64,000 nt of DNA, taken from Parvibaculum sp. GTDB taxonomy: Bacteria; Pseudomonadota; Alphaproteobacteria; Parvibaculales; Parvibaculaceae. The DNA lies in contig NZ_JAUSBV010000008.1 in NCBI RefSeq assembly GCF_030651915.1, forward strand, positions 62,001 through 126,000. The letters run 5' to 3'. The notes beneath the pieces were generated by a model. The model saw only the letters and a program-made list of their open reading frames with translations. It had not been told where the DNA came from and made no database searches. Shown in pieces: positions 42,742-64,000 of this stretch. Numbering within the stretch: the stretch's first letter is position 1; every line of letters starts with the position of its first letter. The translations under genes were made by a program, and so were the position numbers.

Positions 42742-43054
42742 GGGCGGGGGACTGCGCTCCCGGCAAATGGCGCGCTGTGTGTCGTTCCTCGCCACCCCAT
42801 CCCTCGCTCTCCAATTCGTCTTTGCCGGACCGGACCGAAGGTCCGCGGCCCGGCAATCCAGAAGCCGCAAAGCGGCGTCAGGAACACGACTCATTTCCAC
42901 ACCTCTCCGGCAGGGTCGAAAATTCTGTCAGACCCGCGCATAACGGTCACGGGGTCATCCGACAGCTTCTTGCAATACCCGATACATGCCAATGTGGCCA
43001 AAGGCGCGAAACCGATTGCCGGTTTCGCCGCTGCACACGTCAGAAAGAAAAACA

Positions 43055-43783
43055 ATGCGGAAGACGAGAATGCTCGCTGTGGCGGCAACACTCTTCTCTG
43101 TGGCAGTCGCCATATCCATTGCCGTCTATTTCTACAGCACCGGCCCCGATGCGGCGAAACGGGCTGTGGCAGAAGCGGACGCAAGGTTCGAAGCAGATCG
43201 TCGGCGCGAGGAAATCGCGACGATAGAACCTCTCAAGGTCCAACTTGACGCCGCAGACCGGCACTATGAGTTTATAAAAAATTCCAGGGCATCAATTGAA
43301 AACGACATCGTTGATGTCGCCAACAATGCCAGTCATTTGAAATCCGACCAGAGAGAATTGAACAATGTCACCAGCCATCTGGCTTCCCGATACCGGGGCC
43401 TCGGCGTTGATCTTGGGCCCACGTCGGAAAGTGTAGAGGAGCTGATCGGCAAGCTCCACGCGCTGAGGCTCCGGCAGCTCGAAGCAGGCAGTGCAGCGTT
43501 GGAGCTTTCAATTGCGGTGCGTGGTGCACTGGCTCAGGCACAGCTGACTGCCGTTCGGAACGCCACAGGTTCTGCCGCATTGGCGAGGGTGTTGCGATCA
43601 ACGGACGGCGCCGCAGAGCGGATTGGCATCGAGATCGCGTCGGACCCCGCTGCAGACGCCGCCATTCAGTCGATGCGAGACATTGCATTCAGGAGATTGG
43701 CTATCGCCATTACCGGCCTGACGATCATGTTTCTCGGATTCTTGTATGTCCTCAGGTTTCACTGGAATCCGAAAACAGCATAG
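43055..43783 (+). CDS. Two-helix membrane protein with coiled-coil middle (242 aa)
   Basis: An N-terminal helix ('MLAVAATLFSVAVAISIAVYF' in part), a long charged helical middle (~35-130, heptad-like), and a C-terminal helix ('LAIAITGLTIMFLGFLYVL') suggest a membrane-anchored coiled coil facing the periplasm. No family is recognised. AGAAAG stands before the ATG. Local composition is less GC-rich than the neighbouring permease genes. Confidence 0.6.
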   Translation: MRKTRMLAVAATLFSVAVAISIAVYFYSTGPDAAKRAVAEADARFEADRRREEIATIEPLKVQLDAADRHYEFIKNSRASIENDIVDVANNASHLKSDQRELNNVTSHLASRYRGLGVDLGPTSESVEELIGKLHALRLRQLEAGSAALELSIAVRGALAQAQLTAVRNATGSAALARVLRSTDGAAERIGIEIASDPAADAAIQSMRDIAFRRLAIAITGLTIMFLGFLYVLRFHWNPKTA

Positions 43784-44058
43784 CACTCCCGACAGTCCCT
43801 CGCCCCGCTTCTCCCACACCAGCCCAAAATAAACGGAATGATCCCCGCGACGCAGGTATCGAATCGCTGAGTTGTGGCTGTCGCTTACCGACTCGCCACC
43901 ATTTCCGCCACATATTAAGCCCGCGTAGGTTGCATTAGGCCACGCGGCCTACTTAATAACCCGTTGTTTTATATAGATATTTTTAATTTCAAACCAAAGC
44001 GCACTTAACACAGCGAAAGTCTATTGCTTTCATTCCACCGCGCCTGTAGTCGTTGGAC

Positions 44059-44613
44059 ATGGACAAGCTCGATCAAGCGATAGTGGCCAAGCGCCGCGAG
44101 GTGGAAAAACTCAAGATGCAGCATCACACTGCGTCCCTTGAGCTGAAGGCGCTTGAGCGTGCCGCCGCCCTGCGACCGGGGGCAACCCCCGTCACTGACC
44201 GCGTAGAAGACAGACCTCAGAACGCAGTGACTGCCGCGAAAGCAAGACCGCGAACGCGAGAACGCATTCGCAAAGGCGGTCGCAAAGTCGGCTCAATATC
44301 AAAGGATTGGCGCGAAGTTCTTCACATGATTTTTGTGATGGAAAACAAGCGTCAAACGTACCCGGATATTCACAGCATAGCCCAAATGATGGGACTCAAT
44401 GTGAGTGAAGCAAGCACTCGTGACCGGGTTCGCAACATGGTGAAAACAGGGCTCCTTAGTGGGACGCCCGAAAGAGGATTCGCGGTGACGGATGAGGCAA
44501 TCGCCAAATTCGGATTCGCTCAAAGCAATGAAGCGCCCGCCGGAAAATCCGGGAGCGCTTCAGAAGCCGGTGAGGCTGCAACCTCGCCAAACGAGAGCCG
44601 ACCAAACGCGTGA
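44059..44613 (+). CDS. Putative DNA-binding protein with winged-helix-like C-terminal half
   Basis: Residues ~1-45 form a charged coiled coil ('IVAKRREVEKLKMQHHTASL'), then a basic linker ('RPRTRERIRKGGRKVG'). Residues ~95-155 form a helix-turn-helix-like domain ('IHSIAQMMGLNVSEASTRDR', then 'MVKTGLLSGTPERGFAVTDE'). TTG at 44053 is an alternative start. The AT-rich 275 bp upstream (43784-44058) should carry the promoter; nothing else is seen there. Confidence 0.6.
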   Translation: MDKLDQAIVAKRREVEKLKMQHHTASLELKALERAAALRPGATPVTDRVEDRPQNAVTAAKARPRTRERIRKGGRKVGSISKDWREVLHMIFVMENKRQTYPDIHSIAQMMGLNVSEASTRDRVRNMVKTGLLSGTPERGFAVTDEAIAKFGFAQSNEAPAGKSGSASEAGEAATSPNESRPNA

Positions 44614-44685
44614 TCGGCTGAACATTCCTGTGCCGAACAGGCCAGAGCCGGGGCTGGTAGTCCCCGGCAACTGAAAGGAGTCAAA

Positions 44686-44769
44686 ATGCTGAAACTTGTA
44701 ACCGCAGCGGGTTGCAGAGCCGGTAAAGTGGACGGCTATACACTTCCACTAAAGTTGTTAGCGTTCTGA
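44686..44769 (+). CDS. Possible 27-residue small protein
   Basis: ATG at 44686 has AAAGGAG six bases upstream and encodes 'MLKLVTAAGCRAGKVDGYTL' plus 'PLKLLAF'. The good ribosome site is the main support. A GCCGGGG...CCCCGGC hairpin lies just upstream. Confidence 0.3.
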   Translation: MLKLVTAAGCRAGKVDGYTLPLKLLAF

Positions 44770-44844
44770 CCGTGGGCGGGCGGCGCAAGCCGCTCGCTTA
44801 TGGTTTTGCTACCATTCAAGGTAGAATCTGTCAAGGAATCCAAC

Positions 44845-45007
44845 ATGTTGACGCTTGCGGAAGCTACAAAAACTGTGCGGTTGCACGATTTTGTCACGCA
44901 AGAAGAAGCGCGGCATCAAGGCTGCGGATGCCAACGCATATGATCGCGCCTTGGGGGCGACAATCAAAGCGCCCCAATCAGAAGATCAAACTCGGAAACA
45001 AAAATAA
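44845..45007 (+). pseudogene. Short Rhizobiales-type ORF with one frameshift
   Basis: The first frame from ATG 44845 reads 'MLTLAEATKTVRLHDFVTQE'-EAR and then runs out; the frame one base on, from 44924, reads 'ADANAYDRALGATIKAPQSE'-DQT before TAA at 45005. Together they form the pattern of short hypothetical proteins ending 'KAP.SEDQT' that I recall from many Rhizobiales genomes. One base has been gained (or two lost) near 44915-44924. Confidence 0.55.
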
Positions 45008-45066
45008 AGGTGGCACCGCGGCGAACTCCGGAGCCCATGGGCCTATCGCCAACTAGCGACCCTCGC

Positions 45067-45085
45067 CGCGCCGGCTTGTCCGCCG
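45067..45085. repeat. 19-bp direct repeat bounding the islet, right copy
   Basis: Identical to 42568-42586. It lies between the frameshifted short gene and the end of the restriction-modification gene. Confidence 0.6.
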
Positions 45086-45145
45086 AAGCGCCTCGGGAGG
45101 GAAGGTGGAATCTCTGGCGAAAGCGGGGCTTAGGGGGAATAGCGG

Positions 45146-48100
45146 CTACCGCGCGTCTCGCGCCGCCTTCATCTCTTCCACGATGGCCTGCGTCTCGACG
45201 CTCACCCGCGTCACCCGCTTCAGAAGATCGACAACCGTCTCCTTGTAGTCGGCGAACCTGTAGGTGTTGAACTTCTCGCGGATCGTCAGATCTTTCGGCT
45301 TCTTTTCTTTGTACTGGTCGAGAATCCATTCCAGCGCCGAGCGGTTGCCGAGCTTGTAGTCCCACGCTTCCGGCGGAATACCAGTCAATTGCGTCTCGCT
45401 GTCGAGCTGGATGTTCCCCGCATCCTTGTCCGCCTTCAGCATCGCCTTGGGCGCCAGCCCCGCCTTGGCGGATTTCTCGTCGGCCACATCGATCCGCTCT
45501 AACGGCCAGGGCTCGACGGCCTCATAACCGATATGAAGCGCCATCAGCGCCTCGCCCCACGCCGACCATTTCCAGAAATCGGCATAGAAGGGAATGCGCG
45601 GAAACTCGCGTTTCAAATTCTGTGCATATTTCTCGCGATAGACGGGATCGTGCAGCACACCATAGACGTAATGGAAGATCGCATCCTTGGTGATCGGATG
45701 CTTCGGCTTCTTCTCGCCCTTCTCGTAATGCGCGCGAAACTGCTTCAGCGCCCAATCGGTGATGTTGTCGACCAAACTCCCATTAGCTTCTAATCGAGAC
45801 CTTGCGAAAGTTTGACTGCCTCCAGACGCTGGACTGACAAAATTCAAGTCTGGAATTCTATCGATTGCGAGAGAGAAATAGGGTTTTCCCGATGAATCCC
45901 CCATTATTGTTATGGCCCTATTAGCGACCGACCCATCATGGAAAAACTTCGCCGTGAGATTACCCATTTCATTTAAGTGCTCATCTCGGTAAAGCCACTC
46001 AGAAATAAAAGGTCTGTAGTTCGCTCTCACAATTTTGCGCTCATCGAAGACGTAGGCAATTTTCCGCGCAAGGTCGCGTTTTACAGCCCGGGTCCATTTG
46101 ATCGAATAATTTAAGCTGTCGGCTATTTCTTTAGCGGATTTCAGATGTTCAAGACTCTTCAAATCATCGTTATATGTTTGAACTAGATAGCGAACTTTGG
46201 ATGAAAGATGCGATCGATCAAAATCATAGACCCAGTCGTCCCGATTAGTTGCGACACCAAGAGAGTACAATTTGAAGATTGCTTTCTCTTTGGATGGCAC
46301 ACGAGCAGACTTTGTTTCTTTCGTACCGATTGGAATTAGCGAACCAAAGTCGTTATCAGAAAGGTTAATCCAGTCGTTCTTTTCACTCGGTTCAACTTCG
46401 TCGAAACGCAAAGCCCCAACCGTTGTGGCATCAAGAAAGGCTAGCTTCTCCTCCGCCGTCTCCATCTGCGGCCTGCGCACATAGCGGATGCGGCACCCCT
46501 TCGCCTTGTGCCGCTTCACCATGAAGCTGATGGCAACGCCCGTCTGAATGCCGAACACGTTATGCTTCGTGCCTGACAGCCTCGGGTCGGCCCGCACATC
46601 GCCGCCGAGATCGACCACATAGATATCATTGAATTCCTCCGCCACCATCTTGCGGAAGCCGTCAAAGGTCCGGCTCTCTATGAAGCTGCGATTGCTGATG
46701 AAGGCAACGATGCCGTCATCCGCCACCCGGTCGGACGCCCAGCGGAAGAAGCGCGCATACATGTCGTAGAGCTTCGTCTTCTGCGCCGTCGAGGCTTTGA
46801 TGTAGCTCTCCTTGATGCGCCGGTCGATGTCGGGATAGTCGCGGTTCTTGTTGTTCTCGTTCTCGTTGAGTTGGTTCGCGTTATAGGGTGGGTTACCGAT
46901 CACGACGCTGATCTTGCGCCGGTTCTGCCGCTTGATGCGCTCGACATTCTCTTCGCTCATCGCACCGAAAAGGTCTCCTACATGTTGGCCCTTCCTGGTG
47001 CCGAGAGCGGCCACATTGTCCAGCGTGTCAACGAAACAAAGGTTCTGGAATTCCTCATACTCACCGGTAATCGCCGCATAGCTCGCCTCGATATTGAGGT
47101 TCGCCACGTAATAGGGAAGGATCGCGACCTCGTTCGCGTGCAGCTCCTCCATATATTTGTGTTTCAGCTTCGCCGGCTGGCCGCGAAAATGTTCGATCAG
47201 CTCGGTGATAAACGTGCCGGTGCCCGCAGCCGGGTCGAGAATCTCGACATGCTTGTCGATCAGCCGTTTGCCGAAATGCTGCTGGCAGAGCCAGTCCGCG
47301 CTTTCGATCATGAAGCGAACGATCTCGTTCGGCGTATAGACGACGCCCAGCCGGTCGGCGGCCTTCTTGTTATAGACCTTGTAGAAATTCTCGTAGATGA
47401 CCTTGAGGAAGGTCTGCTTCTCGTGATGGTTCGAGATTTGCGCCGCCGCCGCGCGGATCGCCGCATAGTAGGATTCGAGTCCCTTCAGCGTCGTCTTCTT
47501 CAAACCGCCCGTGAAGAACGTGCCTTCCAGCGCGTAAAGCTCGCGCGCCACATTGTTGTGCTGGTGGAATTCGCTCTCGTCAAACACCTTGGAGAAGATT
47601 TCTTCCGTCAGGATGTGCTGGATCAGCATTTCCCGCACATCGGCGTCCGTCAGGCTCGGATTGATCGTCTCCTGCGCGTGTTTCAGAAATTTAGCGGCGG
47701 CCTTCTTGAACTTCGGCTCCTCGCGATGCGCCTTGTCGATCATCTCGCGCAGCGCATCCAGCACGGCCGGAAGGTCGGTCTTGAACTGCTCCACCGCCTT
47801 GCGGAAATTCGAAATCTCCTTCCGCTCGTACCCGAAAAAGAGATTGAGCAGCTTTTCCAGTGCTTCCGGGTCCGTCACGTCGCAGCGGACAATCTCGTTG
47901 CGGTTCTGGATCAGCACCGCCGTTCGCGAATCCTCGAAGATGATGTTGTCCTGCGGATAGCCGCGCCGGAACTTGGTGGCGATCTCATCGTCGAGATCGT
48001 CCTTCTCGTCCTTCGCCTCCCAATAGCCGAACGGCACGCGCAACTCGTGCAGCAGCGCGCCGTCCGCATAGCGGCGGTCCTTGGCGCTCGTCTCGAACTT

Positions 48101-48253
48101 GTATTCGGGAATAAAAATTAGGTCTTTCGAGCGGCCCCAGTCCTTCAGCAGCGTCTTGAACGCCTCGCGGACGACGGACTCGCGCACCTCGCCCGAGGCC
48201 CGCCTGAGGTCCGAAAGGTCGTTCAGATATTTCTGGATCAGAATCTGGCTCAC
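45146..48253 (-). CDS. Helicase-less restriction nuclease / adenine methyltransferase (Type IIG or ISP-like)
   Basis: This 1035-residue single-chain enzyme has an N-terminal PD-(D/E)xK nuclease (D64...E79-A-K81) and a helical region. The gamma-class N6-adenine methylase follows: 'GVVYTPNEIVRFM' (~303-315), motif I 'DPAAGTGTF' (340-348) and motif IV NPPY (454-457). A C-terminal recognition region follows. The superfamily-2 helicase of Type ISP enzymes is absent, so it should cut near its site without translocation. DNA for residues ~617-825 (46400-45780) is visibly AT-richer, as expected for an exchanged target-recognition domain. No separate R, M or S gene is nearby. Confidence 0.85.
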   Translation of the reverse strand: MSQILIQKYLNDLSDLRRASGEVRESVVREAFKTLLKDWGRSKDLIFIPEYKFETSAKDRRYADGALLHELRVPFGYWEAKDEKDDLDDEIATKFRRGYPQDNIIFEDSRTAVLIQNRNEIVRCDVTDPEALEKLLNLFFGYERKEISNFRKAVEQFKTDLPAVLDALREMIDKAHREEPKFKKAAAKFLKHAQETINPSLTDADVREMLIQHILTEEIFSKVFDESEFHQHNNVARELYALEGTFFTGGLKKTTLKGLESYYAAIRAAAAQISNHHEKQTFLKVIYENFYKVYNKKAADRLGVVYTPNEIVRFMIESADWLCQQHFGKRLIDKHVEILDPAAGTGTFITELIEHFRGQPAKLKHKYMEELHANEVAILPYYVANLNIEASYAAITGEYEEFQNLCFVDTLDNVAALGTRKGQHVGDLFGAMSEENVERIKRQNRRKISVVIGNPPYNANQLNENENNKNRDYPDIDRRIKESYIKASTAQKTKLYDMYARFFRWASDRVADDGIVAFISNRSFIESRTFDGFRKMVAEEFNDIYVVDLGGDVRADPRLSGTKHNVFGIQTGVAISFMVKRHKAKGCRIRYVRRPQMETAEEKLAFLDATTVGALRFDEVEPSEKNDWINLSDNDFGSLIPIGTKETKSARVPSKEKAIFKLYSLGVATNRDDWVYDFDRSHLSSKVRYLVQTYNDDLKSLEHLKSAKEIADSLNYSIKWTRAVKRDLARKIAYVFDERKIVRANYRPFISEWLYRDEHLNEMGNLTAKFFHDGSVANRAITIMGDSSGKPYFSLAIDRIPDLNFVSPASGGSQTFARSRLEANGSLVDNITDWALKQFRAHYEKGEKKPKHPITKDAIFHYVYGVLHDPVYREKYAQNLKREFPRIPFYADFWKWSAWGEALMALHIGYEAVEPWPLERIDVADEKSAKAGLAPKAMLKADKDAGNIQLDSETQLTGIPPEAWDYKLGNRSALEWILDQYKEKKPKDLTIREKFNTYRFADYKETVVDLLKRVTRVSVETQAIVEEMKAARDAR

Positions 48254-50129: not shown

Positions 50130-50188
50130 TGGTGGCCCCTGCGGGACTCGAACCCGCACTCCCTTTCGAGAAGCAGATTTTAAGTCTG
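50130..50188 (-). tRNA. 3' half of host tRNA-Leu(UAA); left attachment site
   Basis: Read on the minus strand, this is the anticodon arm (CAGA-CTTAAAA-TCTGC), variable arm, T arm (GCGGG/CCCGC) and acceptor 3' strand AGGGGCC-A-CCA of a leucine tRNA with anticodon UAA. The 5' half is missing: the match stops in the anticodon stem at ~50188, where the first stem pair becomes A-C. This is the expected left junction of a prophage that recombined into the anticodon arm. The missing half should begin GGCCCCT. Confidence 0.8.
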
Positions 50189-50199
50189 TTCGGCAGTGG

Positions 50200-50284
50200 T
50201 GCGGGCGGCGGGGGTCGAACCCGCAAGCCGTTGATCGGCAAGGAATTTTAAGTCCCTCGTGTTTGCCAGTTTCACCACGCCCGC
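50200..50284 (-). tRNA. tRNA-Leu(UAA), complete, prophage-borne
   Basis: The acceptor stem is GCGGGCG/CGCCCGC with discriminator A, and CCA is encoded at 50199-50197. The anticodon arm is AGGGA-CTTAAAA-TTCCT (anticodon UAA), with a long variable arm GCCG-ATCAA-CGGC and T arm GCGGG-TTCGACC-CCCGC. The sequence differs clearly from the split host tRNA, so it is not its repaired copy. It lies 8 bp inside the crossover and should replace the lost host isoacceptor. Confidence 0.92.
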
Positions 50285-50741: not shown

Positions 50742-51791
50742 TTAAGCGCGGGCGGTGGCCGGCGCGGGTGTGTCCAGAAGGGCGACCGCTTCAGCGAGGT
50801 TCTGCGGCGCAAGGTGGGCGTAGCGCATCGTCTGCGTGATCGTCTTGTGACCCATCAGTTGTTGGACCACGCGGATCGGGACGCTGCGCTGTACGAGGCG
50901 CGAGGCAAACGTGTGCCTGAGCGCGTGAATGACGAACTGATCGTCGTCAGCATGGCCGAGGTGAGCGCGTGCGGTGTCCCATGCGTGGCGCATCTCGGTG
51001 TACTTCACAGGCCAGAGGGCGCCGCCGTCACCTGTGGCAGCCAGCCGCCCTGCGATGATCTTGGCGGCACGGGCGGTGAGCGGTACGGTGCGCGGCAGGT
51101 CCGCCTTGTTCACCCACACGGTCACGCTCAGGGCAGCCTTGCCGTCAGCGCTCAGGCCAACGTCTCTCGGAACCATAGCGAGCAGTTCGGAAACGCGGAG
51201 GCCGGTGTCGGCGAGCACTGCGAACGCCTCGGCGAGGAGGTGCTGGCCGATGAACCGCAAGCGCGCCTGCATGGCGGCCTCCTCGGTGTCGGTGAGCCAT
51301 CGGATGCGGCCGGTGCGTTCCTTGCGACGCGGGAAGCGCGGCTTGGACGACAGGCCGCCACGCTCGACCGCGACTGACAGCGCCTTGCTCAGTGACGCGA
51401 GCTTGCGGTTGATGGTGCCGTCTGAGTTGCCCTTAGCGATGCAAGCCGCGACGAAAGCGTCAAGCGCGGTGGTGTTGATGGCAGACAGGCGCAAGCCGGC
51501 GCCGAAGTGTGCCTCGACCTGTGCGGCGTTGATACTGTGCGAGCGGAACGATCTGCTCCCCCGCCAGTCCGTCGCCTTGGTGACGCTGAACGCGTGGCCG
51601 AGCGTCCATGTCTGCTGCACGTCCTGCGCGCCCTCGGCGATGATGTCAGCGCGCAGTGCAGCCTGCGCAGTGACCGCTGCGGCTATCGTATCGCACGTCG
51701 CGGTGCGGCGGTGGCCGTTGACGGTGACATCGACAAAGAACTTGTCACCGCGAACACGCACGCCGCGTGGAAGCGTGATCTTTTTCGCCAT
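50742..51791 (-). CDS. int: Tyrosine recombinase (phage integrase)
   Basis: This 349-residue integrase has an N-terminal SAM-like arm-binding half and a catalytic half. The catalytic half has the first Arg in 'DTGLRVSELL', the His-x2-Arg 'HALRHTFAS', and 'LMGHKTITQTMRYAHL', which supplies the third His and the nucleophilic Tyr. It should catalyse recombination between phage DNA and the tRNA-Leu anticodon arm 0.55 kb away. GGGAG precedes the ATG at 51791. It starts two bases past the stop of the MarR-like gene. Confidence 0.95.
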   Translation of the reverse strand: MAKKITLPRGVRVRGDKFFVDVTVNGHRRTATCDTIAAAVTAQAALRADIIAEGAQDVQQTWTLGHAFSVTKATDWRGSRSFRSHSINAAQVEAHFGAGLRLSAINTTALDAFVAACIAKGNSDGTINRKLASLSKALSVAVERGGLSSKPRFPRRKERTGRIRWLTDTEEAAMQARLRFIGQHLLAEAFAVLADTGLRVSELLAMVPRDVGLSADGKAALSVTVWVNKADLPRTVPLTARAAKIIAGRLAATGDGGALWPVKYTEMRHAWDTARAHLGHADDDQFVIHALRHTFASRLVQRSVPIRVVQQLMGHKTITQTMRYAHLAPQNLAEAVALLDTPAPATARA

Positions 51792-51792
51792 G

Positions 51793-52119
51793 TCATTCTC
51801 CCATGATCTTTTCGAGCGTCTGAGCAAGGCGCTTACCGCGCGCCGTGAGGTGGAGCAGGACGCGCCTCACCTCACTCGGGTCAGGCTCGGCCGAAAGAAG
51901 CCCAAGACCGTCCCGGCCGAGGCGGTGGCGGTCAGCGAGCGCCCGCATGTTGCGGCTCACGGCAGCCTGTGACTGTCCCGTGTAGTCGCAATAGTAGCGC
52001 ACCGTCCGGCCGGGAAAGGCGACGACCACCATGAACAGGTGGACCGTTGTGAGCGAGATGGTGGGGTCGAGCTTCTGAAACTCCTCAAGAACTTTCGCGA
52101 TGCGTGCCGCGTGTTTCAT
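51793..52119 (-). CDS. MarR-like winged-helix regulator
   Basis: This 108-residue protein has 'ISLTTVHLFMVVVAFPGRTV', the recognition-helix region 'DYTGQSQAAVSRNMRALADR', a wing ('GLGLLSAEPD') and 'LTARGKRLAQTLEKIMG', the MarR closing helix. Lying directly before the integrase gene, it may control integration or lysogeny. No CI-type repressor is visible in the window. Confidence 0.8.
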   Translation of the reverse strand: MKHAARIAKVLEEFQKLDPTISLTTVHLFMVVVAFPGRTVRYYCDYTGQSQAAVSRNMRALADRHRLGRDGLGLLSAEPDPSEVRRVLLHLTARGKRLAQTLEKIMGE

Positions 52120-55404: not shown

Positions 55405-55490
55405 TGTTGAGTGTGCTAGCTGGCATCATCAGGCGACAGGCACTCGCCCGCCGCGACGGCGCAAGGTGCGCGCCGTTTCGCCTTTGCACT
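55405..55490 (-). repeat. Phage leader repeat, copy 2
   Basis: On the minus strand, GGCGAAACGGCGCGCACCTT forms a 7-bp hairpin (ACGGCGC/GCGCCGT), followed by CGCCTGATGATGCCAGC and AACAAATCGGAGAATGACCC before the ATG at 55387. Confidence 0.7.
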
Positions 55491-55508: not shown

Positions 55509-55991
55509 TCAGAAATCAGACACAACGGCCGCAAGCGGATTGACCATGTAGTGAAGCGTAAACGCCCGCTGATTTGTCGGCGGATTTCCGTCATGGTAAT
55601 GCGCGTAAAGCGTTTGCCCATGCACCTCTGCGGCGACAAGCGCCTGCATCGCTTCAGTGTGCGGCCCGGCGCCGTACACGGCCGCCAAGTCCGCCTGTTG
55701 CGCTTGCGCCGTTGCGAGTTCGCCGCGAAGCGTGAAATCGTGTTGGCCCTTCCAATGGTGAAAGTCATGCCAAGCGCGAAACGCCCAGTTAACTTGTTCG
55801 TCACCGAAAATGGTGGCGCGCGAGGCGCCGGACCAAACGAGCATGCGCCCCGTCTCGGCAATATGTGCGTTGAGGCGCGCGAGCGTGTCCGGCGCTTCTA
55901 ATAAATCGGCCGTCACGTCAAAGCCGCATGGGAACAGGCGCGAGGCTATGTGCATCGTGGCGACGTTGAGCATGCGATTAAAGGCCTTCAT
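55509..55991 (-). CDS. Unknown phage protein (160 aa)
   Basis: It has 'HIASRLFPCGFDVTADLLEA', 'MLVWSGASRATIFGDEQVNW', 'AWHDFHHWKGQHDFTLRGEL' and 'EVHGQTLYAHYHDGNPPTNQ'. The cluster of His and Trp in 'HDFHHW' and 'AEVHGQ..YAHYH' could bind a metal. This is a recurring hypothetical of phages as I recall, without known function. The leader repeat with GGAG precedes it. Confidence 0.75.
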   Translation of the reverse strand: MKAFNRMLNVATMHIASRLFPCGFDVTADLLEAPDTLARLNAHIAETGRMLVWSGASRATIFGDEQVNWAFRAWHDFHHWKGQHDFTLRGELATAQAQQADLAAVYGAGPHTEAMQALVAAEVHGQTLYAHYHDGNPPTNQRAFTLHYMVNPLAAVVSDF

Positions 55992-55994
55992 TGG

Positions 55995-56085
55995 GTCATT
56001 CTCCGGTTTGTTGGCTGGCATCATCAGGCGCCGGGAACCGCCCCGACACGACGGCGCTAATGCGCGCCGTTTCGCCTAGTCACAG
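55995..56085 (-). repeat. Phage leader repeat, copy 3
   Basis: On the minus strand, GGCGAAACGGCGCGCATTAG forms ACGGCGC/GCGCCGT, followed by GGCGCCTGATGATGCCAGCC and AACAAACCGGAGAATGACCC before the ATG at 55991. Closely matches copy 2. Confidence 0.7.
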
Positions 56086-56925: not shown

Positions 56926-57018
56926 ACGGATTTATCGGCAACAGGCGAATTAATTTCAGGCGCGGCGAAAATTGCAGGCAACGCGCCGCTAAATGCCCGA
57001 AAGGAAAAACGATAGATG

Positions 57019-57135
57019 CGCGCTAGGTGCATTGATCGGGCGCCCGGCGCGGCGCGTCTGGTGCGTCATAGGTGCATCGCTGGTGCGTCATAGGTGCGCG
57101 GCTTCAGGTGCGGCGCTGGTGCGTCATAGGTGGAT
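57019..57135. repeat. Array of TAGGTGC words
   Basis: TAGGTGC occurs at 57024, 57069 and 57091, with CAGGTGC at 57105 and TAGGTGG at 57127. Three of them are embedded in the longer repeat TGGTGCGTCATAGGTG. More single copies lie at 55007, 56662 and 56719. T7 has an array of a 7-bp word beside its terminal repeat, and this could be the counterpart. Confidence 0.65.
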
Positions 57136-57544
57136 TGAACGGGCGCGCGGCGGGCGCGTGATGGTGCATTTAGCGGGGCGTTAGGTTGATCCGTATGCGA
57201 AGTAATTGCAGGTACACGGTATGAGACAAGGACGGGCGCGGCGTTGGACGTGGACAGATGCGCGGCGCGGCCGGGACATGTGAGGCGCGTGGCCCGGCTG
57301 GTGAACCGCAAGGGATTTATAATCCACTGCAATGCGAGGCATAGCGCGGCTTTCCGGCGCGTTGTTGCGGCGCGTGTTGCGGGCGGGGCCGGAGAGGCAT
57401 TGCTTGCGCCCCCGTGGGCATCTTTCCGCGCACGCGCGACCCGGCCACCCCTATGGGGGGAAACGCGATCCAGCCGTACTCGTTATACCCCAACGGATTT
57501 TTCCGTCAGACTTTCGCCGGCAATGTCAACAAATCTCTGTAGAG

Positions 57545-58095
57545 AATTGAGGCAGTAACTATGGGTTGCTCCCGAGGAAGGGTCTGTGCGTCAGCACAGC
57601 CCGACTGAGGGAGCGGGCAAGCGACCTGAAAGAGGCTGGTCAAGCGGTGTCGAGGAAGGGAACCCTCCACCACCCGTTAAATCCCCTCTCAGGTCGCGCC
57701 TAGTAGGCCCGTGGCGGGCGTGAGCGTGTGGGCCGCTACCCATGCACCCGTGAAACTGACGGGCACTGACGGGCTTCCTAGAGGGCCGCCTGTAGCGGAG
57801 CCTCAGGTGCCCTTAGCGGGGCATAGACACAGGAGGACTGAGAGGCGGTGACAGCGGGCCATCCGGGTGGCCGACGCACAGGGGCGCGGTGCGCGGGACG
57901 CTGTCATGCTTCTCAGTCCACCTCTATCTACGGTGGTCAGGTGTGAGCAGACGTGGCTCACCCTCAGGGCATCCTCAATAACTGAGGCAGCCTCCTAGGC
58001 TCACATAGCCTGCACCTTAGATGACCCTTAAGGGGACACCCTCACTACATCGCTATGTGAACCTTCGGAGGAATTGTACCAATAGTGCAACCTAA
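57545..58095. ncRNA. Candidate large structured RNA or packaging region
   Basis: No gene is seen in this ~550 bp, yet complementary segments are abundant. Examples are GCTCCC/GGGAGC (57568, 57609) enclosing CTGTGC/GCACAG; GCGACCTGA/TCAGGTCGC (57621, 57689); CCCGT/ACGGG (57747, 57759); GGACTGAGA/TCTCAGTCC with inner TGACAGCG/CGCTGTCA; GTGAGC/GCTCAC; CCTCAG/CTGAGG; and CACATAGC/GCTATGTG near the end. GGTTGC (57564) can pair with GCAACC (58087) as a closing helix. 'CGAGGAAGGG' occurs twice. On the plus strand the unpaired parts are purine-rich, as in folded RNAs, but the strand is uncertain. Confidence 0.5.
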
Positions 58096-58119
58096 ATGCC
58101 GGCTGCACCCTGCCCGGCC

Positions 58120-58296
58120 CTAGACGAGCGCGTTCAGGGCCGTGAAGAGGTTGACGGCTTCCGGGCTGCGGAGGCGCGTGACGTTGCCCTTCACGTCGGT
58201 GAAGCGGACAGCGCCGTCGCCCTGAAGGACGATCGACAGGGACGCGGTCGAGGCGCCCTTCTTGGCGGTGACGGTGGCGAGATCGGCGATAGCCAT
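58120..58296 (-). CDS. Small phage protein after terminase (58 aa)
   Basis: ATG 58296 has AAAGGA eight bases upstream. 'MAIADLATVTAKKGASTASL' and 'IVLQGDGAVRFTDVKGNVTR' give a strand-rich small protein. It follows TerL by 12 bp and is the last gene before the structured region. Confidence 0.75.
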   Translation of the reverse strand: MAIADLATVTAKKGASTASLSIVLQGDGAVRFTDVKGNVTRLRSPEAVNLFTALNALV

Positions 58297-58308
58297 TGTT
58301 GTGGTCCT

Positions 58309-60072
58309 TTACCAGTCGTTGAAGATGGTGCCGCCGTCCTGATGGCCGTGGCCGGGAGCGGGGGCGTCGTTGTGGGACTGAAGGGCAAGAGTGGTCCAGC
58401 CCTTCAGGGTGTTGGTGAGGGTCTGCTCGACGTTGCGCTTGAGAGCTTCAAAGCGTTCGTCGGCGATCCCCTCGTCCTGCTCGCGGCCCATAGCCTCTGA
58501 CCAGTAGGCGACAGCCATCGCGAGGACGTCGAGCCTGTCATCGTGCCGGAGCGCGCCCCGGTCGCGGGTGATGCGCGTCATCTGGTAGATGAGTTGGTAG
58601 GTCAACGCCTCCTCGGCGGGCAGGTCTTTGACGGAGCGGCTGTCCTCCTCGATCACGGAGCGGTCGATGACCAGCCTGTGCTGGTTCATCACAGGCTCTA
58701 GCGTGTCGATGATGCGCAGTTCCTTTTGCTTCGAGTGGCGCACCTCCTCGATCGTCACCGGGTAGGTGCGGGTGAGGAAGGGCTGAAGCAAGCGGCCGAA
58801 CATGCCGTCGCCGAAGTTGCTCTCGATCAACACGACGTTGACCTTGTGGAGCTTGGCGAGATCGGCGATCGCCTGAAGGTTCTCGTCGGTGTAGCCACCT
58901 CGGAGGCCGGACAGGTGCGGGATGAAGATTTGAGAGTTCAGCACCTTGGCAACGCAGACGCCGGTTTCGTCGGTGCCTCGGCCGGAGGGATCGACCACGA
59001 GGACGCTGCCTGTGTAGGGGCGGCGCTCGCCGGAGTAGCCCATCGGGGACCAGAAATAGTCACCGTCGAAGGACACGTTGTACAGGTCCGAGAGAAGGTT
59101 CCTGTTGCCGTCGCGGCCCCACACAACCTTCTCAGGCGCCACGTCACCGTCCACGTCCATGACGAGCAGGTCAGCGACCTTGAGCGGGAAGCGGTCGGCG
59201 TCAGACAGGCTGGTGTCGAGCATGAACTGTAGGGCGAAGCCTGAACGGCCGTAGCTGGCCTCACGCTCCATCAGGTCCACGTCGGAGAACCGGGCGGGAT
59301 CGACTGAGTGCTCCACCAGCATGGGGTTGCCAGAGAGCAGCGACAGGACGCGCGGGGCGAGGCGCCCGCCGTACTTGGCGACGCGTTCGGCTGTCGGGTA
59401 GCGGGCCGGCCACACGCGCATGGAGTAGCCACGCTGCGGCAGCTTGTTGTAGAGGCTCATCTCTGTCTGCGGCGTGCCGAGGTAGATGATACGGCCGTCC
59501 GGCTTCAGGATGGCGTCGAACTCCTTCACGGCCTCGGAGAGCTTCGTTCGCATGCCCTCTGTGGCCGAGTTGTTCGGGATTTCGATGTCGTCGGCGATGA
59601 TGACGTCAGCGCGCGAGCCTGCAAGCTGGCCGGTGATGCCGACCGACTTGACGGACGGGGCGTGCGAGGCGCGGGCAGGGCCGACGTCGAAGGCTACCTT
59701 GGAGTTGCGCTGGCCGGAGCCGGGCATCAGGTGGCGCAGTTCCGGCATGTCGTTGATGAGCCGGAGGGTGAACGTGGTGAAGTCGTCGGCGCGGAGCTTG
59801 GAGGCCGACACGACGAGGATGTTCAGTTGCGGGTTGCAATAGAGCAGCCAGCAGACGAAGGCCGACGTCACCCACGACTTACCGACGCCCCGGAAGGCTT
59901 CGATGATGCAGCGCTTGGGACCGTGCTGAAGGTAGCGCGCGATGTCGTATTGTACGTCTGTCGGCCGTGGAAGGTTGAGGTGTTCCCAAACGCGGTAGAG
60001 GAACACCCTGAAGTCGGCCTTGAGGGGGTCCACCGGCGAAAGTGCCGTGGTGGACATCAGGTGGTCGGTCAT
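58309..60072 (-). CDS. terL: Terminase large subunit, T7 gp19-like
   Basis: This 587-residue protein is almost the same length as T7 gp19 (586). The P-loop is 'AFRGVGKS' (59-66), Walker B is 'VIIADDIE' (157-164), and the nuclease acid lies in 'VLVVDPSGRGTDETG'. It powers DNA packaging and cuts concatemers. ATG 60072 has GGAGG only three bases upstream; ATG 60057 is an alternative. Confidence 0.93.
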   Translation of the reverse strand: MTDHLMSTTALSPVDPLKADFRVFLYRVWEHLNLPRPTDVQYDIARYLQHGPKRCIIEAFRGVGKSWVTSAFVCWLLYCNPQLNILVVSASKLRADDFTTFTLRLINDMPELRHLMPGSGQRNSKVAFDVGPARASHAPSVKSVGITGQLAGSRADVIIADDIEIPNNSATEGMRTKLSEAVKEFDAILKPDGRIIYLGTPQTEMSLYNKLPQRGYSMRVWPARYPTAERVAKYGGRLAPRVLSLLSGNPMLVEHSVDPARFSDVDLMEREASYGRSGFALQFMLDTSLSDADRFPLKVADLLVMDVDGDVAPEKVVWGRDGNRNLLSDLYNVSFDGDYFWSPMGYSGERRPYTGSVLVVDPSGRGTDETGVCVAKVLNSQIFIPHLSGLRGGYTDENLQAIADLAKLHKVNVVLIESNFGDGMFGRLLQPFLTRTYPVTIEEVRHSKQKELRIIDTLEPVMNQHRLVIDRSVIEEDSRSVKDLPAEEALTYQLIYQMTRITRDRGALRHDDRLDVLAMAVAYWSEAMGREQDEGIADERFEALKRNVEQTLTNTLKGWTTLALQSHNDAPAPGHGHQDGGTIFNDW

Positions 60073-60193
60073 AGTCCTCCTAGGACGGCCTGTACGCCCC
60101 GCTGAGTGGCCTCTCAAACTCACGGGTGATTGCACCTGTGCGGAAGAGAACGGCACTGGCGGGGCGCGCAGGCGTCTTGTGGTGGAGATCGGC

Positions 60194-62997: not shown

Positions 62998-64000
62998 TTA
63001 GGGCTTGACGGAGTTCAGAAGTTCGATGCCCTTCTGCTGCGTCGCAGGCTTGGCCGACTTCGCAGCAGCGGCGCCGACCTTGGCCGCGCGCATCTTGGTG
63101 TTGAACACCGGGTCTTCAGCCATCATCCGCTTCACAGCAGCGCTGTGGTAAGCTTCAATGACCTTTCGCGTGGCACGCTGCCGCGCACCTTCGACGCCCT
63201 CAGGCGTGTCGGGAAGGCGGGCGCGAGCGCTGTCATACGCCGGGCTGTCGAACAGGCGCCGAAGCTTTGCCTGCACGTTCCGGCCGCCGCTATCTGTCAC
63301 GGTAGCCATCGTCTTGTTCAGCGCCGAGTATTCAGCGCCGGTCAGTTCGACGCCGTAGAGCGTCTTCGACGGACTGTAGGCAACGCCGATGCGGATGAGT
63401 TCGTCGGCGATCTCGTTACCTTTGATCGGCATTGACGTGATCGGAGAGAGGAACGTGTCCGGCCGGACAGCAGGTTCGCCTGTGAGCCACGACACGCGCG
63501 CGGGAAGCGTCTCGCTCCACCCCGGAAGGCGGGACTTGAAGCGGTCCTGCACCGTCCGCACTTCGCGGATGATGTTGTCCATCTCGTGTGTCGTCTGGCC
63601 GAGCATCGCGGAGTACGGGAGCATCGACGTCGTCATCTGCTGTATCAGCGCGTTGGCCTTATCGGGGCGGTCGGGGCTGGAAACAGCGTCGATGAGATCG
63701 GTGATGCCTTGGAAGTAGAGCTTGTTCGAGAGCGTCTTACCGAGCGCAAGCGCTGTCACCAGCGTCATGTCCTCGTAGGTCTTGTCACTTCCCTCAAGCT
63801 GCCCGTAAATCTCCGAGCTATCCGCAAGCACGCCGATGATCGTTGCGAACGGGTCGAGGCGCTGATAGCTCACCCACCTGTCACCAATCCGAATGGAATA
63901 CGGCTGCCACCCGGCTTCGATCCACATGGCGCGGAGAGCGTGGTCGCTCGGGCCGGCGCCGGTGACGTTTCCGTTGATGACTTCAGCGGTGATGGCACCA
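62998..64000 (-). CDS. Internal virion protein C-terminus (gp16 position), partial
   Basis: The frame is open to the right edge; residues before the first in-window ATG read 'GNVTGAGPSDHALRA'. 'MWIEAGWQPYSIRIGDRWVS' and 'YQRLDPFATIIGVLADSSEI' resemble the LPD38-like end of large phage ejection proteins. Its place just upstream of the fibre equals T7 gene 16, the protein ejected to make the DNA channel. The end is basic and Ala-rich. Confidence 0.8.
   Translation of the reverse strand, partial: GAITAEVINGNVTGAGPSDHALRAMWIEAGWQPYSIRIGDRWVSYQRLDPFATIIGVLADSSEIYGQLEGSDKTYEDMTLVTALALGKTLSNKLYFQGITDLIDAVSSPDRPDKANALIQQMTTSMLPYSAMLGQTTHEMDNIIREVRTVQDRFKSRLPGWSETLPARVSWLTGEPAVRPDTFLSPITSMPIKGNEIADELIRIGVAYSPSKTLYGVELTGAEYSALNKTMATVTDSGGRNVQAKLRRLFDSPAYDSARARLPDTPEGVEGARQRATRKVIEAYHSAAVKRMMAEDPVFNTKMRAAKVGAAAAKSAKPATQQKGIELLNSVKP

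Follow-up and report, generated by a model that had tools for sequence, protein, structure and literature searches.

The closest described counterparts of the locus studied here are the right ends of phages T7 and T3. Behind terL, both carry a promoter, CCTNA-type words, a signature and then the terminal repeat, and the records of both annotate the promoter, phiOR, at this place behind gene 19. The T7 genome description is said to report arrays of short repeats adjoining the terminal repeat, whose length we take to be 160 bp, in agreement with the T7 repeat seen here. A second point of comparison is offered by GOLLD and ROOL, ornate RNAs that are borne by phages. The completion of the left terminal repeat before packaging in T7-like phages was not fully understood as of 2012, according to an excerpt of PMC3350473.

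Here, we analysed a 64,000-nt stretch of Parvibaculum sp. (contig NZ_JAUSBV010000008.1, positions 62,001 to 126,000), which we call the window and whose numbering is used throughout. We observed what looks like the same arrangement behind its terL, and the sequence gives good support to an anatomy of promoter-like motif, structured untranslated segment, conserved hairpin and predicted repeat start. In comparison to the window (z -8.6), T7 (z about -3) and T3 (z -5 to -7) are less structured; the sequence of their segments is unlike that of the window, and the window phage is integrated.

Prophage setting and the promoter-like motif

The segment at 57545-58095 lies inside an integrated T7-like prophage, 3' of terL. 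With the genes of Mesorhizobium phage Lo5R7ANS as tblastn queries, 13 of 23 could be placed in T7 order: RNA polymerase, ssb, endonuclease, primase, DNA polymerase, exonuclease, portal, capsid, two tail-tube genes, fibre and terL, then integrase. Among the ten queries without a tblastn match, eight were early genes and two encoded internal virion proteins; a profile search placed an internal virion protein at 62998-63927. The terminase large subunit (T7 gp19-like, 615 aa; phrog_38, E 1.7e-115) is encoded at 58309-60156 on the minus strand and shares at most 64% with T7-like maturase B among the tblastn matches listed. A tyrosine integrase (phrog_1, E 7.6e-50) is encoded at 50742-51827 on the same strand, and the phage RNA polymerase gene lies at 89558-87042. 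As in other T7-like genome-end segments, a terL of T7 type lies immediately 5' of the segment, and the phage encodes an RNA polymerase of its own. The preliminary description, made from the letters and open reading frames, had placed it at the genome-end junction of a T7-like phage downstream of terL, and the positions of terL and of the repeat-start signature agree with this.

A 17-bp direct repeat at 50172-50188, deduced from three overlapping exact 15-mers, has a second copy at 90357, outside the window, and lies 8 nt past the 3' end of a tRNA-Leu gene (50197-50284, minus strand). These repeats are likely the attachment sites of the prophage. About 2 kb outside the attachment site, the stretch 43001-48000 has a G+C content of 0.52-0.57, compared to 0.58-0.70 in the rest of the window, and a 1035-aa ORF in it (45146-48253) matches phrog_4840, of unknown function.

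The segment is gene-free, as had been claimed: the longest ORF fully within 57545-58095 has 52 aa, and one 104-aa plus-strand ORF overlaps the edge, intruding up to 57558. At its 5' edge, the motif TTTAGGTTGCACTATTGG (58079-58096, minus strand) looks like a phiOR-type phage promoter, a candidacy based on the same-strand recurrence of TTTAGGTTGCACC. In raw counts, the 54 kb searched contain four minus-strand copies of TTTAGGTTGCAC with C or T as the next base (86788, 83322, 76939 and 58095) and no plus-strand copy; the last of the four stands just 5' of the structured segment. Judged by sequence, a putative phiOR-type promoter is present between terL and the repeat, and by analogy with T7, transcription would be expected to start (+1) near 58080. 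A small ORF of 58 aa at 58120-58296 (minus strand), known from the ORF listing, separates terL from the promoter-like motif, whereas in T7 and T3 the small ORF follows phiOR.

Folding of the segment and its counterparts in other phages

We folded both strands of 57545-58095 and compared them with shuffled sequences. The minus strand, which has the sense of terL, reached -278.6 kcal/mol (z -8.60) and the plus strand -267.5 kcal/mol (z -5.42); none of 100 shuffles was as good for either strand, which bears out the earlier impression of a highly foldable region. A re-run with 40 shuffles gave z-scores of -9.6 (minus) and -6.6 (plus), and the neighbouring 305 nt at 57240-57544 were unremarkable (+0.45 and -0.01, 40 shuffles). 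Composition does not account for the advantage of the minus strand, since it was the shuffled plus-strand sequences that had the lower mean. Each of the two folds contains 20 G-U pairs. Transcription from the promoter-like motif would yield the better-folding of the two strands.

On the basis of the fold z-scores and the short-word enrichment of 57545-58095, we annotate a structured untranslated segment at 57568-58080 on the minus strand. In the minimum-free-energy fold, its first hairpin after the promoter-like motif, hairpin A (57991-58071), has a 9-bp core at 58060/58001, matching a helix that had been read near 58002/58052. The long hairpin at 57835-57919 holds the nested 9-bp and 8-bp arms proposed earlier (57919/57835 and 57906/57849), and a further long hairpin at 57621-57697 ends in the 9-bp helix noted near 57621 (57697/57621). 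The hairpin with the internal loop GAGGAA/GACTGA was found at 57568-57614; this is hairpin E, the last of the segment. We rejected one proposed element, a closing helix GGTTGC/GCAACC, which joins the foot of the last hairpin to the core of the promoter motif at 58093-58088 and so uses promoter-motif sequence. This partner lies upstream of the expected +1 and would therefore be absent from a transcript starting there.

Dense stable hairpins 3' of the last late gene might form a passive tail that stops read-through or shields late transcripts from nucleases. We regard this as improbable, because the segment directly follows its own promoter-like motif and 57000-58400 holds no terminator-like site.

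Next, we set the segment against known RNA families. No Rfam family reached its gathering score in 57545-58095, and at E<=5 the only matches were far under their own gathering scores. The GOLLD and ROOL models are presumably part of Rfam 15, and Rfam presumably also has a model of the phi29-type packaging RNA; none of these matched at either level. Given these results, the segment cannot be identified as GOLLD or ROOL, in line with the preliminary description, which had recognised neither. It resembles both in being long, gene-free and highly foldable, but its place is fixed at the predicted DNA end. DNA similarity searches with 57000-58300 against 50,697 phage records, and with 57500-58110 against 97 related genomes apart from its own, returned no homologue; the viral contigs were covered by TerL, integrase and pattern searches rather than by DNA similarity. 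A TerL search for closer prophages had hits in 1 genome out of 40 from the order and in 2 out of 385 from a class sample, own genome included, and an integrase search gave six distant partial matches. Apart from hairpin E, these searches gave no homologue of the structure, and among the papers listed from an open-licence library, judged by title or start of abstract, none describes such an RNA.

Structured RNA does occur at the same spot in other T7-like phages. Bordetella phage BB8 and its relatives bear a structured RNA with ATGGGGGGTARGGGGGG (GGGGGGUARGGGGGG strand) behind terL, which we call the G-run RNA and first found in eight loci (L124, L132-L137 and L088). A scan of viral contigs for the motif gave at least 120 stretches; among those listed, 24 had a T7-type terL in the 2.6 kb upstream, several of these being near-duplicates of each other or of loci collected earlier. 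None of 13 loci tested matched Rfam. Covariation was slight in the one sub-group that we aligned, with 2 of 33 pairs changed on both sides and many one-sided G-U changes. BB8, L132, L134 and L135 are like the window in position, in strong folding and in the better fold of the terL sense, and BB8 also has CCTNAGG-type words; unlike the window, BB8 and its relatives bear the G-run motif. As a member of this group the window was rejected: its best match has 7 mismatches, where shuffles average 6.7, and model R1, built on one sub-group, does not match it.

These counterparts bear on the reading that a structured RNA, ornate or similar to packaging RNA, is made from the phiOR-like promoter and acts in trans, away from its own gene. 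The better fold of the terL-sense strand, the promoter-like motif at the 5' edge and the G-run RNA, whose terL sense folds better in 15 of 16 loci tested (31 members), all speak for it. We nevertheless hold it to be rather unlikely, given that neither Rfam nor the DNA searches of phage records and 97 other related genomes returned a relative.

To see how general such structure is, we compared 30 segments between terL and the signature, the window included. Their median z was -1.37 in the sense and -1.43 in the antisense direction, compared to -0.9 for a stretch taken from the terL gene; as the median lies near this control, strong structure is no general need of T7-like packaging. Strong sense and antisense values came from BB8 (-10.7/-5.0), the last 450 nt of the window (-7.0/-5.8) and L092 (-6.0/-5.3), and likewise, in a separate comparison, from L132 (-11.1/-4.0), L135 (-6.3/-4.1) and L134 (-6.1/-4.5). 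The antisense folds better in L087 (-4.1/-6.2) and T3 (-2.6/-3.5), and many of the other segments have z-scores near zero. TRX32-1, induced from a Rhizobium lysogen, gave -1.9/-3.3 just behind terL and 0.0/-0.1 just before the signature, and L340, the sole other prophage found in the class sample, shows no strong structure (-1.0/-0.5). A hairpin ahead of the repeat proved weak as a general mark: among 130-nt sense pieces, 11 of 45 before the signature had z<-2, against 5 of 44 inside the repeat.

Short words of the type CCTNA/TNAGG number 17 in the segment against 5.2 expected, a count that none of 500 shuffles reached. Such words would suit a pure DNA element, in which a short-repeat array and hairpin-forming DNA serve recombination or repeat duplication and RNA has no part. 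This reading draws on the good folding of both strands and on the enrichment of palindromic CCTNAGG-type words in Lo5R7ANS, BB8 and T7 as well as the window. Against it, the words are enriched at p<0.1 in just 7 of 30 segments and in sum they exceed expectation (173 against 130) by no more than they do in the terL-gene control (157 against 110), for which reason we dropped them as a general mark; the terL-sense bias of BB8, L132 and the window also speaks against it. We judge it unlikely, if the least so of the alternatives.

The repeat-start signature and hairpin E

We then examined the boundary of the terminal repeat. In T7, T3, LUZ100, BB8 and Lo5R7ANS, an AAAAATC-like word in the terL sense stands 11-29 nt before the repeat, with a C-run about 40 nt beyond the word; the repeat of Lo5R7ANS was identified by eye. 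A strict pattern for this signature, designed with some of the known-repeat phages in view, matched downstream of terL in 29 of 64 loci (raw count) and in the window, and a similar pattern matched in 10 of 23 BB8-like loci. RHEph01, whose record gives a 512-nt terminal repeat, did not match the pattern. In the window, a weight matrix derived from 36 of these loci gave its top score, 23.8, at 57502, followed by 9.9 at the next best place; the best of five shuffled windows reached 19.3. Applied to 16 loci outside its training set, the matrix gave scores of 23.6-31.4 downstream of terL in 10 and 15.5 in L115, and found no good place in the other five (L096, L120, L143, L146 and L147). Altogether the signature was seen in the window and in 49 other loci, some of them near-copies.

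In the window, the signature occupies 57477-57514 on the minus strand, with AAAAAT at 57502. The prophage has one copy of the terminal repeat, for which we predict a start near 57485 and an extension, in the direction away from the segment, to about 57259 (57259-57485, minus strand; both edges approximate). The far edge is a weak call made from an ATCTGT word at 57254-57259 (minus strand), a candidate pause site at the concatemer junction: in 3 of 7 phages examined (T7, T3 and Pasto), ATCTGTT coincides precisely with the edge of the repeat, and the window has ATCTGTC at 57259. Because the signature lies beyond the segment, the segment is the stretch from terL to the repeat and not the repeat itself. 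The preliminary description had offered the terminal-repeat or packaging region as an alternative; the nearness held up, and the identity gave way to a segment between terL and a repeat that would start at about 57485. The position of the segment at the genome-end junction is what speaks for its being the repeat, which we consider highly improbable, since the start signature lies past it at 57502 and the repeat follows the signature in all five phages named above.

Two further elements lie on the other side, in the left-end region of the phage. Two type II hammerhead ribozymes (RF02276, 37.2 and 51.4 bits, gathering score 37) are found on the minus strand at 55414-55483 and 56009-56077, flanking a 171-aa ORF (55509-56024) that overlaps one of them; hammerheads that flank prophage genes are described in an excerpt of PMC3088659. 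At 57048-57132, in the early left-end region, there are four partly overlapping copies of a 27-nt GC-rich direct repeat with the core GGTGCGTCATAGGTG.

Hairpin E (57568-57614, minus strand) has a counterpart at 5480-5526 of L003 (IMG/VR contig 3300035199_001193), whose TerL, at 74%, is the closest among the 80 loci listed. With this one homologue, hairpin E was the only hairpin in which the proposed covariation could be followed: of 15 pairs formed in both sequences, 6 are changed on both sides, all to Watson-Crick pairs, and none on one side. Both sequences have the same loop (TGAC), the same internal loop (AGTC/TTCC) and the same bulged A. Two positions adjoining the internal loop, outside the 15-pair count, are paired in L003 and unpaired in the window. 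In a control, 8 of 500 shuffles reached the observed values, which is near the limit for two sequences, and structures slid out of place pair 17-57% of cells. These changes, being all Watson-Crick, suit the pure DNA element as well, and they do not distinguish RNA from DNA. The plus-strand loop exposes GTC, which we take to be the recognition triplet of T7 primase.

The distance from hairpin E to AAAAAT is 65 nt in the window and 60 nt in L003. This conserved distance to the predicted DNA end suggests action in cis and speaks against an RNA acting in trans. L003 shares with the window the hairpin ahead of the common signature, and differs in that its 450 nt before the signature lack strong folding (z -1.0 sense, -2.7 antisense) and that its terL and the hairpin are separated by ORFs of 92 and 286 aa. 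An exact 13-nt match, GAGATTTGTTGAC, occurs near hairpin E in both (window 57525-57537, L003 5524-5536) in opposite orientation and may be due to chance. The two-sequence model of hairpin E found no third case in 90 sources of 0.99 Mb (88 besides the window and L003). A degenerate pattern picked out eight stretches of viral contigs, and the fold of hairpin E was seen in the L003 contig alone; a relaxed search over the loci collected by then returned the window, copies of it and L003, and nothing else.

Proposed role at the phage DNA end

Taken together, these data suggest that the segment probably helps to make or package the phage DNA ends, acting in cis as RNA or as DNA. Our best explanation, to which we give about an even chance, is that of a right-end untranslated segment that reaches from the phiOR-like motif to the terminal repeat and acts in cis at the concatemer junction. 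From its place, and from T7 biology as presented in excerpts of PMC4281155 and PMC3276506, we infer that this role would lie in concatemer processing or packaging. Phage RNA polymerase would start at the phiOR-like promoter, and the segment would fold while it is copied, or while its DNA turns single-stranded. Hairpin E, beside the repeat, might then aid the pausing polymerase, terminase or priming machinery, which would cut the concatemer junction and duplicate the repeat for packaging.

A broader version of this explanation is speculative, and we think it doubtful: T7-like phages would carry fast-evolving structured RNAs, among them that of the window and the G-run RNA, which are made from a phiOR promoter beside the DNA end, dock at the start of the terminal repeat and serve terminase loading or repeat duplication. 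Here, hairpin E would mark the priming site of the second repeat copy.

In conclusion, mutational analysis has a precise target in the conserved hairpin, which keeps nearly the same distance from the signature. The G-run RNA may represent a new RNA family, and the signature could allow terminal repeats to be predicted in prophages.
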